From contig NC_015738.1 of the NCBI RefSeq assembly GCF_000270285.1, forward strand, positions 2,480,001 to 2,544,000: a DNA stretch of 64,000 bases. The letters are read 5' to 3'. Position numbers and translations under genes: made by a program. This document shows positions 16,643 to 47,464 of the stretch, one piece after another; position 1 is the first letter of the stretch; every line of letters starts with the position of its first letter. The notes beneath the pieces are model-generated. The model did no database searches. It saw only the letters and a program-made list of their open reading frames with translations, and had not been told where the DNA came from. The DNA is from Eggerthella sp. YY7918 (GTDB lineage Bacteria; Actinomycetota; Coriobacteriia; Coriobacteriales; Eggerthellaceae).

Positions 16643-16670
16643 TACGCAACCTCCCTCATGATGCTCTGTT

Positions 16671-16710
16671 CTAACCGATTCTAACCGATTCTAACCGATT
16701 CTAACCGATT
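16671..16710. repeat. Four perfect tandem decamers upstream of AlbA regulator
   Basis: CTAACCGATT occurs four times in succession without a mismatch (16671, 16681, 16691, 16701). The 10-bp period places each copy on the same helix face, as expected for cooperative binding of a regulator. The array lies directly before the AlbA-type gene on the minus strand. Confidence 0.85.
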
Positions 16711-16727
16711 CACGATACAATTAGTTA

Positions 16728-41035: not shown

Positions 41036-43666
41036 CTATTCCTCGATGCCAACCGGCATGACGATGGGCCGATTCTTATCGGGTTCAAGCTTGATGTTGC
41101 CCGTGTACTTTTCCACCTGCACAAGGGTGCCGGTCCACGATTGAGACGCCTGACCAGAAGCCTTCGGTGCTTGCAAGATATTCGGGTCGCCGCCCAGGTC
41201 AATACCCGTTTCTTCATCAATCTGTATCCAGGCGCCGTCTTGCAATGCTACTGAACCAGGTACAAGCGTCGGCATCACCTTCGCCGGACGGAGCACCTGG
41301 CCGTACGGGCTGGTCATTAACACAAGATCGCCGTTCTTAATGCCTCGAGCCTCGGCATCCACCGTGCTCATGAAGCACTCCTGCGGGAACGCCTCGCGCA
41401 GTGACACCACATTGTCATTAACCGTATGAGCACGACGCAGCGAATGAGGAGTCCAGAGCAGAAGAGGATATTCTTCGGTTTGCGTCCCCTGACCTTGCTC
41501 CGGATCGCCAATTTGCCATTTTCCGATGGGGGCGATCTGAGAATAACCCAGTGAATTGACCACAGCAGCCAGCGTCGGGCAGTAGATTTCGAACTTACCG
41601 GTGGACGTGGGTAGCGGGTTGGCAGCCGGATCGGCGAAGAACGCACTCCACGGCACGCTTGTCAGCTTGTCGCCCTTCTGACGCTGCGTCTTGTAGCAGC
41701 CCTTTTCCTTCAGCTCCGCCACGGTCATGATGCCTTCCTGTGGCGCTCCTTCGACACCGAATGCGTCAATATCCTCCTGCGTGATGGTGAGCAGCGGCCT
41801 GTAGTCCATCGTCGCGGCATCCGCAAGATAGGTTGCACCTGCGAGGGAGGCATACGTACGCTCCTCGTCCGTCATGGTGTTCGCAGCCTTCGGATCGAGA
41901 TCGAGGCGCTTGCACAGCTCTTCGGCGATGTAACCTTCGGGCTTTGACTCGTAGAGTGGTTCCATAATCCTATCGGCCCAGAACACCGTTTCGGAGTTGT
42001 TCGTCCAGGCAAGGTTACCTTTCTCCCACCACGTGGCAACCGGCAGCACGATATCGCAGTACTGGCGCGAAGGATCGAAGAACGGGTTGGCACCAAAAAC
42101 GAAATCGGCCTTGCGGAACACCTTGATGCCGGCGTTCGCGTTGGGTAGCGAATTCAACGAGTTCTCGTACCCGCCGCTATAAATGAGATGGATGTCGAGC
42201 GGCTTCTTACCTCCCGGCCAGATGTCGCGACCGTACGCGCCGTCGAGGATGGACTGCCAGCATTCGGTGAAGTCGATCCGCTCCCATCCGCCGGGGTCTT
42301 TGATCTCGGCGAAGTTCGGCGTAACCATAAGCGACGGAGGAGTAAGCGGGTTGACCGGATTCTTTTGCGCACCATTGGAGGAGTCGCCCGCCGTGACGTA
42401 CGGGGCACCTGACATACCTTCGTGCAGGCCGACCCACGAAGCATAGTTGCCCTGGGAGCCCATGCCGCCGTGCATGAACGCAAGCGTATAGAACACTTGG
42501 GCGAACATTTCACCGGCCGGAATCTTCGTTGTCGACTGACCGGCGAAGAAGTCCACTTTCTCGGCTCCGGCAATCTCTTCCGCCAGTTCGCGGATCTTGG
42601 CAGCCGGAACACCGCAGATGGCCTCGGCCCATTCGGGCGTCTTCGGCTCACCGTCATGCGTGCCCAGCACATAGTCCTTGAAGTTGTCCTCGGCAGGAGC
42701 GCCCTCGGGCATATGCTCGGCATCGAATCCGACGCAGTACGTGTCAAGATATTCCTGATCAAAGAGGTTATTTTCGATCTGATGGTAAGCCATACCCAAG
42801 CAGAAGGCTGTGTCAGTACCGGGGCGGATAGCAATCCACTCGTCGGCGACCGCCTGAGCCGTCTGGTTCAGCCACGGATCGATGATGATGATTTTTCCAC
42901 CCTGCTGGCGTGCATAGTCCAGCTGGAATGTGGTGTTACCACCCTTGTTCGCCATCCAGTTGCAGCCGAACAGGATATGCAGATCGCTGTCAGCAACGCT
43001 CAGTGCGTCAGGAGCAGCCAACATGCCGCCCGTCATGAACATCTCAGGTAGCGGCCATGAACCGAGCGACACCGTACCGAGGTCGTGATGGACAGCTCCG
43101 CCCATCAGGTTGAACATGCAAACGACCGGATCGAAATACGTGTCACCAATGTCGTCGTACGCGGCGCTCAGGATGGCGCGGTTGCCGTACTGGTCGACGG
43201 TCTTCTTGATCTCGGCTGCGATGTAATCGAGCGCCTCTTCCCAGCTGATGCGCTCCCATTCGTCCTTACCGCGCATTTCGCCGTTCGGATTGTCGGGACT
43301 CCAGCCCTTGCGCTTCATCGGATACTTAATGCGCGCAGGTGATACCATGTTGCTGATCTGAGCGCGGCCACGCGGGCAAGCACGACGCTGCGGCACTTCG
43401 ATCGTATCCTCGTCCTGCTCATCGGTTCTGATTTTCAGCGGAACACCGTCTTCGACGTACACCCGCAGCAGACAGCGTGACGAGCCGCAACTGCAGTTGT
43501 TCATGCAAGCGCCCGTTAACCACTGACCTGCTTCTTGATTTCCCGCTTGACCGTCACCCGATCCTTGGCCCGAGGATGAACACCCCGTAAAGCCCACGAG
43601 TGCCGTTGCACCAGCAGCTGCCGTCCCCCACTTAATGAAACTTCGCCGTGTTAATGTCGTGTCCAC
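41036..43666 (-). CDS. DMSO-reductase-family molybdopterin oxidoreductase (Tat-exported)
   Basis: 876 aa from a GTG start with a GGGGG-type ribosome site. A Tat signal (LTRRSFIKWG) is followed by a possible lipobox Cys29 (GFTGC). The 4Fe-4S site uses C54, C58/C60, C65 and C97 (ACPRG). Mo-bisPGD domains follow (LFGCNWMANKGG; IIIDPWLNQTAQ; APIGKWQ). By position, the Ser in GTVSLGSW could be the Mo ligand, but this is uncertain. The acceptor (DMSO, TMAO, S-oxides or others) is unknown. It is the first gene of a four-gene operon and divergent from the ferric-reductase-like protein. Confidence 0.88.
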   Translation of the reverse strand: MDTTLTRRSFIKWGTAAAGATALVGFTGCSSSGQGSGDGQAGNQEAGQWLTGACMNNCSCGSSRCLLRVYVEDGVPLKIRTDEQDEDTIEVPQRRACPRGRAQISNMVSPARIKYPMKRKGWSPDNPNGEMRGKDEWERISWEEALDYIAAEIKKTVDQYGNRAILSAAYDDIGDTYFDPVVCMFNLMGGAVHHDLGTVSLGSWPLPEMFMTGGMLAAPDALSVADSDLHILFGCNWMANKGGNTTFQLDYARQQGGKIIIIDPWLNQTAQAVADEWIAIRPGTDTAFCLGMAYHQIENNLFDQEYLDTYCVGFDAEHMPEGAPAEDNFKDYVLGTHDGEPKTPEWAEAICGVPAAKIRELAEEIAGAEKVDFFAGQSTTKIPAGEMFAQVFYTLAFMHGGMGSQGNYASWVGLHEGMSGAPYVTAGDSSNGAQKNPVNPLTPPSLMVTPNFAEIKDPGGWERIDFTECWQSILDGAYGRDIWPGGKKPLDIHLIYSGGYENSLNSLPNANAGIKVFRKADFVFGANPFFDPSRQYCDIVLPVATWWEKGNLAWTNNSETVFWADRIMEPLYESKPEGYIAEELCKRLDLDPKAANTMTDEERTYASLAGATYLADAATMDYRPLLTITQEDIDAFGVEGAPQEGIMTVAELKEKGCYKTQRQKGDKLTSVPWSAFFADPAANPLPTSTGKFEIYCPTLAAVVNSLGYSQIAPIGKWQIGDPEQGQGTQTEEYPLLLWTPHSLRRAHTVNDNVVSLREAFPQECFMSTVDAEARGIKNGDLVLMTSPYGQVLRPAKVMPTLVPGSVALQDGAWIQIDEETGIDLGGDPNILQAPKASGQASQSWTGTLVQVEKYTGNIKLEPDKNRPIVMPVGIEE

Positions 43667-44695: not shown

Positions 44696-44869
44696 CTAAG
44701 CAGTAGCTGCAATAGCTTTTCGTTTGCGTTCGGCTGCATAGTCAGCCCACATTTTCTTTGAGTTTTCTTCTAACTTAGCTTCAATCTCAGGCGGAACATA
44801 CGGAGCATCGGCGGGATCAAGATCAAGCTTTGTGTCATCCATAACAAAATGAAGTTTCTCTTCTTCCAT
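44696..44869 (-). CDS. 57-residue acidic protein paired with JAMM protein
   Basis: 57 aa, not recognised. It starts MEEEKLHFVMDDTKLDLDPADAP, Asp/Glu-rich, and ends in a basic helix (KKMWADYAAERKRKAIAATA). GGAGGAGG lies shortly upstream of the ATG, and the ATG overlaps the stop of the JAMM gene by one base (TAATG), so the two are translationally coupled. Low GC matches its partner and differs from the neighbouring operons. The charge pattern and size would suit an inhibitor, antitoxin-like or adaptor peptide; this is speculative. Confidence 0.7.
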   Translation of the reverse strand: MEEEKLHFVMDDTKLDLDPADAPYVPPEIEAKLEENSKKMWADYAAERKRKAIAATA

Positions 44870-45459
44870 TACCGCAACCTCCTCCAGATGAATAGATTAT
44901 GCGTTTCGTTTTCCTTAAGGAGCATATCTAAAGCTTTGTTTTCGGCAAAATTTCCATAGTAATCTTTTCGTGCATTGTACGCACTCTCAAGTTGGTGCGC
45001 AATGTTTGCATCGCCAATGGATATGTACCAGAGCGATCCATCATGACCAACAATGATTGATGCTGAAATCTTCTCCTCTTTTGCAGCTGTATACACGTCT
45101 CGATATGAGGGCGGTCTACTTGAAGGATGGTTATGAACGATAGTCACACGATCTGGACATTTTTGAACTCTCCACATTTCTCTATCATTAAATGAAGTTT
45201 TCTTTTCTGATGCCGAGCGATACAGATTGTCCGCAACAAGTTCGCCTGTTCGAGCGTTGATAGCGACCATATATTCAAAGTTCGTTCCACTTGTCGCCCT
45301 CAAAATGCGACCGGTTTGTTCGTAAGCGCTCTCAGCAACAAACTTAGGTATTGGCATTTTTTCAAATGCATCATGAAATGCCTTTGTGTTTACAACGGAA
45401 GAAACTGAGAGAGCATTAGTTTTCTTGTCAAGAGGAACGAGTGATTCGCTGCATTCCAT
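44869..45459 (-). CDS. JAMM/MPN-domain putative metalloprotease
   Basis: 196 aa. Residues 60-135 look like a JAMM (RadC/Mov34-like) fold with the zinc motif H109-x-H111-x6-S118-x2-D121 (VHNHPSSRPPSYRD). A preceding beta-strand (YMVAINARTGEL) fits as well. JAMM proteins are isopeptidases or peptidases, and RadC-like ones have unknown targets. AGGGG precedes the ATG at 45459. A 17-bp hairpin sits just upstream and a degenerate 22-bp repeat array beyond it. It forms a coupled pair with the 57-aa gene. The pair is AT-richer than its surroundings, suggesting transfer. Confidence 0.72.
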   Translation of the reverse strand: MECSESLVPLDKKTNALSVSSVVNTKAFHDAFEKMPIPKFVAESAYEQTGRILRATSGTNFEYMVAINARTGELVADNLYRSASEKKTSFNDREMWRVQKCPDRVTIVHNHPSSRPPSYRDVYTAAKEEKISASIIVGHDGSLWYISIGDANIAHQLESAYNARKDYYGNFAENKALDMLLKENETHNLFIWRRLR

Positions 45460-45474
45460 GAGACCCCTTTTGCC

Positions 45475-45526
45475 ATACTGATAGGAGCGAAAGAGTAGGC
45501 AACACACCCTTCGCTCCTATCAGTAT
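45475..45526. promoter_or_regulatory. 17-bp inverted repeat before the JAMM gene
   Basis: ATACTGATAGGAGCGAA (45475-45491) and TTCGCTCCTATCAGTAT (45510-45526), perfect arms 18 bases apart, starting 16 bases before the JAMM start codon. It could be a dimeric operator or a leader hairpin. Confidence 0.7.
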
Positions 45527-45536
45527 AGGAAGCTCA

Positions 45537-45668
45537 TCCAGCAGATATATGACAGGAATCCAGCTTAAACCTATCGGATATTGTGCACAGGTACAGCGGA
45601 AATCTAGCGCGAATCTCACACACCTCTAGCGTGAAACTAGCAACAATCCAGCGCAAATCAAGCAACTT
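45537..45668. repeat. Degenerate array of six 22-bp units
   Basis: Units begin at 45537, 45559, 45581, 45603, 45625 and 45647, all exactly 22 bases apart. The best-conserved starts are TCTAGCGCGAA, TCTAGCGTGAA and TCCAGCGCAAA (units 4-6); units 1-2 start TCCAGC and unit 3 is weak. The array fills the gap between the JAMM gene hairpin and the nuclease stop. The period is two helical turns. Confidence 0.6.
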
Positions 45669-45671
45669 AGC

Positions 45672-46436
45672 CTACGCCCATTTATGGGTGACACCACGGT
45701 TGTCGGCAAGGGCTTCTTGGCCCCATTGGGCGAACAATCCGTCGTGATAGGTGTCGGGGCGATAGGTTCGCGCTTGACCGTAGCCGTCGATGATTTGAAT
45801 GGCATTCAGCATGCCGCGTGCGATAATAGCAGGATCATCGGCATCTGCCGCGCTGGCGGGCAGTTCGCGCCAAATATAGGCGAGGGGACGGTCGTACTTG
45901 TCGGTTACGCTGGTGTCGTACTGTAGCCACAGCGTGTCGCCCTCATGTACCAGTTCCTTCAAATGGTTGGATGCCAGCACCCCTTCTTCGCAATTGCGCT
46001 CCTTCTGAGGCGCGACGCTTTCGGGCGTGTCGAGGCCCACCATGCGCACCGACGCATGCTCGCCTGTGGCGGTCATCACCGCAATGGTGTCCCCATCAAC
46101 CACGTGGCGCACCGTTACCTGGTCAAACGTTGCAGGATCCAAATGCGCACGCTGCTCTTGCTTGCCGCGTGCTGCATCTTGTTCGGCGGCTCGATAGGCC
46201 GCTTCAGAAACACTCCCCGCCGGCTGGGTTGCCGTTGAGGCACCTGGTACTTCTTCGCTTCTTGCGGCATCAAGCGCAGGAAGCTGCGTGCCCACCCAGG
46301 CCACGGCAAGCACCACCACAACAAGCAACACGCTCACAACCCTGCCCGAAGGCGTACCCTTTGAAGCTTCAAAAGCCCGCATCAGGCTTTTGCGAACGTG
46401 TGCGTTTTTCAGAAGCGATAAGAGCCTATTGGCCAT
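45672..46436 (-). CDS. Membrane-anchored staphylococcal-nuclease-like protein
   Basis: 254 aa. A basic N terminus and one hydrophobic segment (about 34-53, VVSVLLVVVVLAVAWVG) suggest an anchor or uncleaved signal. The SNase domain covers about 100-225 with VRHVVDGDTIAV, RMVGLDTPES and KYDRPLAYIW. It probably degrades extracellular DNA or RNA. The start at 46436 is one codon past the phosphoesterase stop, so it is the second gene of that unit. GGAG precedes the ATG inside the upstream gene end. Confidence 0.85.
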   Translation of the reverse strand: MANRLLSLLKNAHVRKSLMRAFEASKGTPSGRVVSVLLVVVVLAVAWVGTQLPALDAARSEEVPGASTATQPAGSVSEAAYRAAEQDAARGKQEQRAHLDPATFDQVTVRHVVDGDTIAVMTATGEHASVRMVGLDTPESVAPQKERNCEEGVLASNHLKELVHEGDTLWLQYDTSVTDKYDRPLAYIWRELPASAADADDPAIIARGMLNAIQIIDGYGQARTYRPDTYHDGLFAQWGQEALADNRGVTHKWA

Positions 46437-46439
46437 TGC

Positions 46440-46964
46440 CTACGCTCCGACTTCCATCAACGTCTGACCATCAAGCGACTCAATGCGCACGCTCAGCACT
46501 CGACCATTTTCGACAACCATGCGGCCCGTACATTTCGGAAATCCACCGCGCGGGCGAAACGGCGCTCCAGGGCACACCACGTACAACGCCGGACGTGCCT
46601 CGGGGCCGGTCAGAATTTCGGGCACATGCGTGTGCCCGTGCACGCACACCTGAGGGATGGGATCTCCCGCCGACAGAGCCGCGCTACCGTTGAAACCAAT
46701 TTTCACGTCGCGCGGATAGTGCGCCACCAGAAACCGCACGCCATCGATGACCGGATGGGCAAACCGACGCACTCTATCGCCGTATTCGTCAAAGTCATTA
46801 TTGCCGAGAACAGCTGTCGTAGGAGCAAGCGCTTCAAGCGTGCGCAGAATGTCGGGACCGCCGATATCGCCCGCATGAATGATATGGTCGACATCGGCCA
46901 TCGCAGCAAACGCCTCCTCCGGCAACCGACCGTGCGTATCTGAAATGAGTCCGATTGTGGTCAT
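46440..46964 (-). CDS. YfcE/MJ0936-type metallophosphoesterase
   Basis: 174 aa. Metal motifs ISDTHG, AGDIGG, LGNNDFD and HGHTHVPE are all visible, matching small YfcE-like phosphodiesterases active on cyclic or aryl phosphodiesters in vitro; the natural substrate is unknown. TATACT on the minus strand at about 47032-47037 is a plausible -10. It precedes the nuclease gene in the same unit. Confidence 0.87.
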   Translation of the reverse strand: MTTIGLISDTHGRLPEEAFAAMADVDHIIHAGDIGGPDILRTLEALAPTTAVLGNNDFDEYGDRVRRFAHPVIDGVRFLVAHYPRDVKIGFNGSAALSAGDPIPQVCVHGHTHVPEILTGPEARPALYVVCPGAPFRPRGGFPKCTGRMVVENGRVLSVRIESLDGQTLMEVGA

Positions 46965-47464
46965 GCGACAAGCCTTTCATCGTTTGAGCGCCGGAAAGTC
47001 GCAAACAACTCCGGCACAACAAATTGATTTCAGTATAGGCCATCGCACGCGTAAGCTCATCTCCACACACGACCCTCAACTCAGACAATAGCGCACATCG
47101 AACCTCTATGGTGTTCGCTTGCTCCATCGATTCTCAATTGAGGCTCTCCATTGACCTTGAGCGCTCTTATTCGCCCGTTCGAATGCATCCGAATCGACGG
47201 TATAGGTAACAAGGCTGTTGCGAATGCCTTTCGCTTTTATAGGGTTGTAACTATCTCCCTTTCCCCTTTTCTTTGCGCGCTACCCTGACACAGCAATAAG
47301 AATCCCGTAGCTTTAAAGTTGACGAAAACGTAACTTTTAGCACTCGACGCTTGACAGTGCTAGCTGATCGATTTATAACAGCAGTGTTAAGAAAATCATA
47401 TAGACAGAGGCTTAGATTTTATGATAGTTGCACAAGCCTCGCCTGACACTAGGAGATGATTAGT
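46965..47464. other. Intergenic region between phosphoesterase and hsp20
   Basis: 500 bases. The left part holds the minus-strand promoter of the phosphoesterase; the right part holds the hsp20 promoter and CIRCE box. No gene is supported between them. Confidence 0.6.
47337..47379 (+). promoter_or_regulatory. CIRCE element and hsp20 promoter
   Basis: TTAGCACTC, nine bases, CAGTGCTAG (47337-47363) matches the HrcA-binding CIRCE inverted repeat (TTAGCACTC-N9-GAGTGCTAA) with two mismatches in the right arm. -35 TTGACA (47351-47356) and -10 TATAAC (47374-47379) are separated by 17 bases, so HrcA would block the -35. Confidence 0.8.

Follow-up and report, generated by a model that had tools for sequence, protein, structure and literature searches.

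A Family of 11-bp Repeat, Promoter-Like Arrays before Competence Genes of Eggerthellaceae, and a Phage-Related JAMM Gene Pair behind One of Them

Organization of the Locus

The window, that is, the whole 64,000-nucleotide stretch of the Eggerthella sp. YY7918 genome analysed here, contains a gene for a JAMM-motif protein followed by a gene for a small acidic partner. Upstream of the pair is an array of short direct repeats, and upstream of the array is an SNase-domain gene (Table 1). A sequence-only reading of the window had described the two genes of the pair as overlapping by one base, and both ORFs are indeed present, sharing TAATG at 44869. For the JAMM gene, a start at ATG 45459 is more likely than one at GTG 45507 because AAAAGGGG precedes the ATG and because the N-termini of homologues agree with it. 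The pair is AT-rich, as that reading had also held: GC is 0.40–0.44 in intervals across 44750–45499 versus 0.56–0.63 across 45625–46999 and 0.54–0.61 across 42000–43624. On the far side of the small ORF, the next gene is also fairly AT-rich, with a GC of 0.47–0.53.

Table 1. Features of the JAMM locus, numbered from the first base of the window.
Feature	Position	Strand	Remarks
JAMM gene, RadC-clade JAMM/JAB domain protein, 196 aa	44869..45459	−	Extension to GTG 45507 possible
Small partner gene, acidic 57-aa protein with DD motif	44696..44869	−	
Array of twelve 11-bp operator-like units, approximately YGCTDGATTYN	45533..45664	−	Score 92.1; R1 E 5.4e-25
Penultimate unit, TGTCATATATC	45544..45554	−	Near the −35 position
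−10-like hexamer TATACT	45522..45527	−	5 bp past the last array unit
17-bp inverted repeat, possible leader hairpin	45475..45526	−	Arms 45475–45491 / 45510–45526
SNase-domain gene 5' of the array	45672..46436	−	Outside array control; context only

The array had been seen as six degenerate units of 22 bp. Those units have a mean pairwise identity of 0.51 versus 0.26 in shuffled sequence, with none of 2000 shuffles as high, and when the period (10–30), the start and the number of units (3–6) are left free, none of 60 shuffles matches. The periodicity is far beyond chance, but the basic period is 11 bp and the units number twelve instead of six. The fraction of matching bases is 0.44, 0.52, 0.54 and 0.48 at lags of 11, 22, 33 and 44, respectively, and 0.15–0.35 at the other lags from 5 to 49. 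On the minus strand, the array begins directly past the stop codon of the SNase gene and ends 5 bp short of the TATACT hexamer. It is the sole array in the window with a score of at least 16. Tandem Repeats Finder misses it, and a sigma-70 consensus scan finds neither a promoter at the array nor a TTGACA-like hexamer. Elsewhere in the window, at 16669–16711, is a perfect 10-bp tandem repeat, TTCTAACCGA, in 4.3 copies.

The inverted repeat, perfect over 17 bp as first reported, covers the −10 box, the mRNA leader and the start of transcription, which is predicted at about 7 nt past TATACT. A leader hairpin of −19 kcal/mol is predicted, weakly better than shuffles (z −1.57). At the corresponding locus of a genome from another genus (L031 of G228), a smaller leader hairpin of different sequence is predicted in the same place (z −1.15).

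A Dispersed Family of Promoter-Like Arrays

The window array has many counterparts in its own genome. A two-unit pattern has 46 matches there versus 4 for the pattern read backwards, and a position-weight scan of the loci around the two-unit matches gives 19 arrays. Four weak scores (16.6–18.5) were left out of the 19 because scores up to 16.4 occurred in the reversed control too; a fifth weak score (16.3, at L031) was counted as the tail of the L031 array. Eight of the 19 have exactly 12 units, and the others have from 6 to 15.

The arrays share a promoter-like end in 17 of the 19 cases, the ends of two (L113 and L125) having been extended by eye for this count. In 13 of these 17, the motif [TC]AnnnT follows exactly 5 bp past the last unit, and in the other four it follows at 6 bp; two arrays, L121 and L127, have no such end. 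In 14 of the 17, the penultimate unit carries CAT at its positions 4–6. CRISPR arrays and plasmid iterons were rejected as explanations since the arrays are scattered and run up to −10 boxes.

The genes behind the 19 arrays fall into several kinds, as follows. Six arrays precede rpsF-ssb, a comFC-like gene, recA, comEA-comEC, comM-dprA and a Tad/Flp pilus operon in which cpaB and cpaE are followed by T2SSE and T2SSF genes. Five (L114, L115, L116, L122 and L123) precede toxin-type genes, namely MazF, Fic and three genes of the Gp49 family, which we take to be HigB-like. Another four stand before topB, a DUF559 gene, a SpaA/TQ surface protein gene and the JAMM pair. One (L113) precedes a small ORF whose homologue in G260 also follows an array, and for three (L112, L121 and L127) no downstream gene fits the promoter model. 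Pfam recognises RecA, HHH/SLBB (ComEA), Competence (ComEC), Mg_chelatase (ComM), DprA, S6, SSB, RcpC/CpaB, topoisomerase, PemK/MazF, Gp49 (three times) and Fic among the proteins 3' of the arrays; where Pfam yielded domains alone, the gene names are our reading. For most of the genes, the start is no more than about 120 bp from the −10 box, but rpsF, comM, fic and topB start 253–538 bp away. The comFC-like ORF as called starts before the −10 box, and its true start must therefore be later.

Two further gene types recur at arrays. An 85-aa, apparently membrane-spanning ORF without a Pfam match lies behind an array in two genera (L113:2586-2843 and L228). Genes with alike starts ('SHISALEFW' and similar) are found at L121, L127 and L130, and also at L288 and L300; they are divergent 5' of, or lie behind, arrays that have no other clear target.

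The Arrays in Other Genomes

R1, a sequence-only model built from 13 arrays, 12 of them from the YY7918 genome, has 21 matches in that genome at E ≤ 1e-3, two arrays each being split in two. At E ≤ 0.001, it matches in 35 of 138 genomes of the family and in 19 of 48 genera. At E ≤ 1e-4, it matches in 28 of 392 genomes of the order, with eight candidates scored per genome; all 28 are inside the window's family, and no match was seen outside it in this sample. In G317 the unit is GCAAGRTT, with 64 matches versus one for the control, and R1 scarcely detects these variant arrays (one match); therefore, the absence outside the family holds for the R1 consensus only. The unit differs among genera, GCAAGRTT in the G317 arrays (L285–L303 and L035) versus GCTDGATT, while the regulon stays much alike, as if the specificity of a regulator had drifted together with its operator.

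Over seven genomes, arrays precede comEA-comEC, comM-dprA, comFC-like, recA, rpsF-ssb, Tad-pilus and toxin–antitoxin genes. The array loci among the matches listed, followed by the number with a homologue of the YY7918 regulon behind the array, are G228, 19 (besides L031), 11; G283, 14 of 18, 8; G296, 6 of 13, 3; G260, 9 of 18, 3; G262, 11 of 20, 4; and G317, 19 (besides L035), 7. That is, such a homologue is present at 36 of 78 array loci in the six genomes and absent at 42, versus 1 of 33 control chunks when proteins other than the JAMM protein are counted. The controls, of 4.6 kb each, come from the window and from five family loci fetched by their JAMM genes; one holds the window's own array, and the single positive one is comM-dprA beside a JAMM gene. 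None of the six other genomes has the complete set behind arrays; in G260 it comprises comEA-comEC, the L113-type ORF and a HigB-like gene only. AbiEi and BrnT genes also lie behind arrays in other genomes, and toxin-type cases (L188, L205 and L289) occur in several genera.

A comparison that makes no use of the consensus gives a similar picture. Among the best 30 of 123 matched genomes, L352 being left out for its upstream stretch of 149 bp, an 11-bp periodicity is found in 18 of 29 comEA upstream regions (10 of 14 genera) and in none of 29 downstream stretches. The other 11 upstream regions, including that of G270, from the window's own genus, lack it. ComEA is present in 123 of 137 family genomes; many comEA genes may therefore lack such an array.

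A promoter element is thus shared by comEA/EC, dprA, comM, comFC and pilus genes, as would be found in a natural-competence regulon. A DNA-damage regulon of the SOS kind would also bring together recA, ssb, a topoisomerase and toxin–antitoxin genes, all of which fit both readings. LexA boxes are palindromes, unlike the 11-bp direct repeats of the arrays, and comEA-comEC, comFC-like, comM-dprA, Tad pilus and prepilin-peptidase genes are genes of uptake and transformation. We regard a damage regulon as unlikely on these grounds.

The direct repeats offer a hint about the kind of protein that might bind them. Tandem 11-nt direct repeats near −35 are present, as in operators of the OmpR/PhoP type, and our first guess for the regulator is an OmpR-type factor because Streptomyces PhoP binds 11-nt direct repeats, some of which overlap −35 (described in PMC7866108). 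The PhoP operators have about 2 to 6 units and serve phosphate genes, whereas arrays of the window type often have 12 and precede competence genes. BldC-type binding is not favoured because BldC operators are 9-bp direct repeats, AATTXXXX(C) (PMC5859096), and the array period is 11, not 9. The YY7918 genome has 13 HTH_17 matches, four of them above the cut-off; the two of those four loci that were read apparently lie in mobile elements.

The JAMM Protein

The protein has the catalytic set E...HxH...S..D of the RadC/JAB (JAMM) superfamily, and its residues E62, H109, H111, S118 and D121 are invariant in all 35 rows of alignment A5. The AlphaFold model (mean pLDDT 94.1) has a JAMM/MPN fold, matching Pyrococcus JAMM1, AMSH-type enzymes, Cap3 and RadC; folds missing from the list of matches are not taken as excluded. 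Canonical RadC has an N-terminal HhH region. The 212-aa JAMM ORF has no HhH match in Pfam, and the protein has no Pfam RadC match (PF04002) at E ≤ 1, so it was rejected as a RadC orthologue. Canonical RadC was not found in five of six family genomes searched, the window's own included; the sixth has one (L381, G317:C96). In a sequence profile search of the PDB, designed 'Cake' proteins (E 5.2e-5 to 6.1e-4) stand above RadC 2qlc (E 1.2e-3) through a 20-residue stretch that we take as chance.

JAMM relatives, some of them weak, occur in 29 of 395 order genomes, and in 2 of the 11 genomes with at least 10 R1 matches. The JAMM gene is an accessory gene of patchy presence among the order genomes. 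Searches of PADLOC, PHROGs and NCBIfam gave no useful match, the plasmid search gave no JAMM match, and the single protein as query found no relatives in genome contigs or viral contigs. The alignment as query, against viral contigs, found JAMM relatives in 44.

Kinship with Phage Minor-Capsid Genes

All eight fused relatives that were scanned have Phage_min_cap2 or Phage_Mu_F at the N-terminus, in one case just below the cut-off. Streptococcus phage MissF has the order terminase, portal, minor capsid protein, three small ORFs, scaffold and major capsid, and its minor capsid protein is 27% identical over the JAMM part. The small partner belongs to the same arrangement. Inspection by eye of 21 rows, the window and 20 relatives, shows in all 21 a small ORF that adjoins or overlaps the stop codon of the JAMM gene. 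Residues D11-D12 of the 57-aa partner are invariant in all 11 rows of alignment A4. A small ORF with an RBS-like motif is present at 40 of 44 viral loci, a count made without a chance control, and a loosely defined DD-like motif in the small ORF at 35 of the 44.

In sequence, the JAMM pair is akin to minor-capsid proteins of phages (MuF/Phage_min_cap2) that carry a C-terminal RadC-like JAMM domain and are followed by a small ORF. With fused phage relatives and a small ORF at the JAMM stop, the pair therefore looks like an old phage cassette. A comparable arrangement is known from the MuF polymorphic toxins of temperate phages, in which the domain is C-terminal in a MuF or minor capsid protein and a small ORF lies behind in 89.4% of 191 cases; the words 'JAMM' and 'JAB' do not occur in the available text of that source (PMC5576092). 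The window copy has the small ORF directly downstream, but it lacks the MuF/Phage_min_cap2 N-terminal domain and has a host-type promoter, and there are no phage genes among the ORFs read nearby.

Stand-Alone Pairs and Their Places

Six intact stand-alone JAMM pairs were found, and all six keep the active-site residues. The pairs of the window and of G228 (L031), from two genera, share the SNase locus and the array. In G317, one pair (L035) lies behind its own array at another locus, and a second follows, after about 0.5 kb, the homologues of the genes that close the Tad cluster, with no array detectable there. In G236 the order is comM-dprA-JAMM-small, the JAMM ATG being 8 bp past the dprA stop; an array 5' of comM was sought and not found (z 2.6). 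The sixth pair, L034 of G352, has no competence link, and its neighbours are presumably mscL and sbcDC. Judged by arrays, dprA operon and Tad cluster, five of the six intact stand-alone pairs are tied to competence genes. Assuming that about 3% of a genome lies in competence neighbourhoods, the chance for four of five independent loci would be about 4e-6.

In a midpoint-rooted tree of 46 rows, the six stand-alone pairs fall in one clade (100/99), among phage-type sequences. The phage-fused L033 of G216 lies inside this clade as the sister of L034, which comes from another family (99/96), suggesting exchange between phage and chromosome. Identities of 0.63, 0.74 and 0.33 at the three codon positions, window versus L031, show at the level of the coding sequence that the JAMM gene is under purifying selection.

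These comparisons bear on the proposal that the locus is a transferred defence or regulatory module with an array of its own. It holds that the JAMM gene and its small partner form a coupled unit, that this unit has relatives in mobile elements and that its control region is of the array type. The array, however, is not private to the pair, being a dispersed promoter element before DNA-uptake and recombination genes, and it accompanies three of the six intact stand-alone pairs (window, L031 and L035; three genomes, two loci) but not the other three. Nor is there a match in the PADLOC defence library. The pair is not considered a recent transfer because a second genus has it at the equivalent position after an SNase-like gene and because it is under purifying selection.

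Common phage copies of the pair, and the grouping of L034 with L033, might be thought to make it a prophage relic, a remnant of a minor-capsid gene without present function. Intact ORFs, the kept active sites, conservation of codon positions 1 and 2 with a diverged third, the same place in two genera, and a promoter with an RBS already disfavour this reading, and we judge it highly improbable. Hardly more probable is a module for anti-phage or superinfection immunity, in which the captured pair would protect against phages that inject a matching JAMM effector. MuF toxins have been proposed to be injected, with immunity genes behind them (PMC5576092), but the enzyme and its active site are kept here although the partner alone would suffice, PADLOC is silent, and the linkage to competence would be left unexplained.

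More weight is due to a toxin–antitoxin or addiction module, with a JAMM toxin and a 57-aa antidote that would merely hitch-hike on competence control, as would the MazF, Gp49/HigB-like, BrnT and AbiEi genes behind arrays. Five of the 19 arrays of the YY7918 genome (Fic counted) stand before toxin-type genes, with BrnT and AbiEi behind arrays elsewhere, and an overlapping small acidic partner and patchy presence are consistent with such a module. The usual type II order is antitoxin first, HigBA being an exception; the pair is JAMM-first and, being linked to dprA and to the Tad cluster, seems to serve a function there and not to hitch-hike. We hold this alternative to be a serious one, yet the less probable account. 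A relevant precedent is the HigBA-type toxTA of Haemophilus influenzae, in which, likewise, two coupled genes form a small unit controlled by a competence promoter (as described in PMC6957337), although its protein families are different and it has a CRP-S site where the window pair has the array.

A Proposed Competence Switch

We propose, as the likely explanation, that the array promoter family is a natural-competence switch and that the JAMM pair is a phage-derived cassette under competence control. The array would be a tandem-operator promoter, with a putative regulator sitting on the twelve 11-bp sites head-to-tail, with roughly one site to each helical turn. Over the −35 region would lie the final two units, from which the regulator would bring RNA polymerase to the −10 box, 5 bp past the array. 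Because this switch also stands before DNA-uptake, recombination and pilus genes, it is most likely the natural-competence switch of the family. The cassette would consist of the C-terminal RadC-like domain of a minor capsid protein and its small follow-on gene, minus the capsid part and with a start of its own; the transfer, we infer, ran from phage to chromosome.

Under this competence switch, the JAMM protein would be made together with the uptake machinery. It would probably be a metallo-enzyme acting on protein or nucleic acid during transformation, like the competence-induced RadC; RadC-clade JABs may act on nucleic acids (PMC3482391, PMC5512222). The acidic DD protein, through coupled translation, probably restrains or stabilises the JAMM protein, and it may be an antidote, a stabiliser or a substrate. 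In its widest form, the proposal is that a single regulator on at least 12 tandem 11-bp operators turns on the transformation programme across gut Eggerthellaceae, that the JAMM enzyme and its partner were recruited at places beside SNase, a DUF362-like neighbour, dprA and Tad genes, and that the operator drifted from GCTDGATT to GCAAGRTT while the regulon stayed. We lean towards this wider form with somewhat less assurance.

Competence control of a RadC-clade JAMM/JAB enzyme, proposed here from the arrangement of the genes, has a parallel in the streptococci. For radC of S. mitis, which has a CIN-box promoter, induction values of 167.3 and 297.6 are given in PMC6001120, and PMC4774983 describes RadC levels that rise during competence and a RadC that is not always apparently essential. 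The window protein differs from streptococcal RadC (UPF0758) in being non-orthologous, of phage minor-capsid kin, without a Pfam RadC or HhH match, and provided with a coupled partner.

Among actinobacteria, Micrococcus luteus requires tad genes for transformation, which is Flp/Tad-dependent (PMC4322843). It has a comEA-comEC operon (PMC8467076); the term 'direct repeat' is absent from the available main text of that source. For Eggerthella, Gordonibacter and Coriobacteriia, no title or abstract on an array regulon is among the matches listed for competence, DNA uptake or comEC, which is not proof of absence, and the available text of PMC10269533 contains no competence data on Eggerthella. The array regulon points to an undescribed natural-transformation programme.

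Implications for the Family

Competence control in Actinomycetota is an open question, and according to the available text of a 2026 paper the upstream regulation of competence in M. luteus remains to be identified (PMC12849477). Phage heads appear to be the source from which a competence regulon recruited the JAMM fold here, which bears on the recurrence of JAMM (RadC-like) enzymes in such regulons. In this family of gut bacteria, the promoter element marks a putative competence regulon and so makes it directly testable, and, for hosts in which modification is difficult, the element could provide a way in for genetics.
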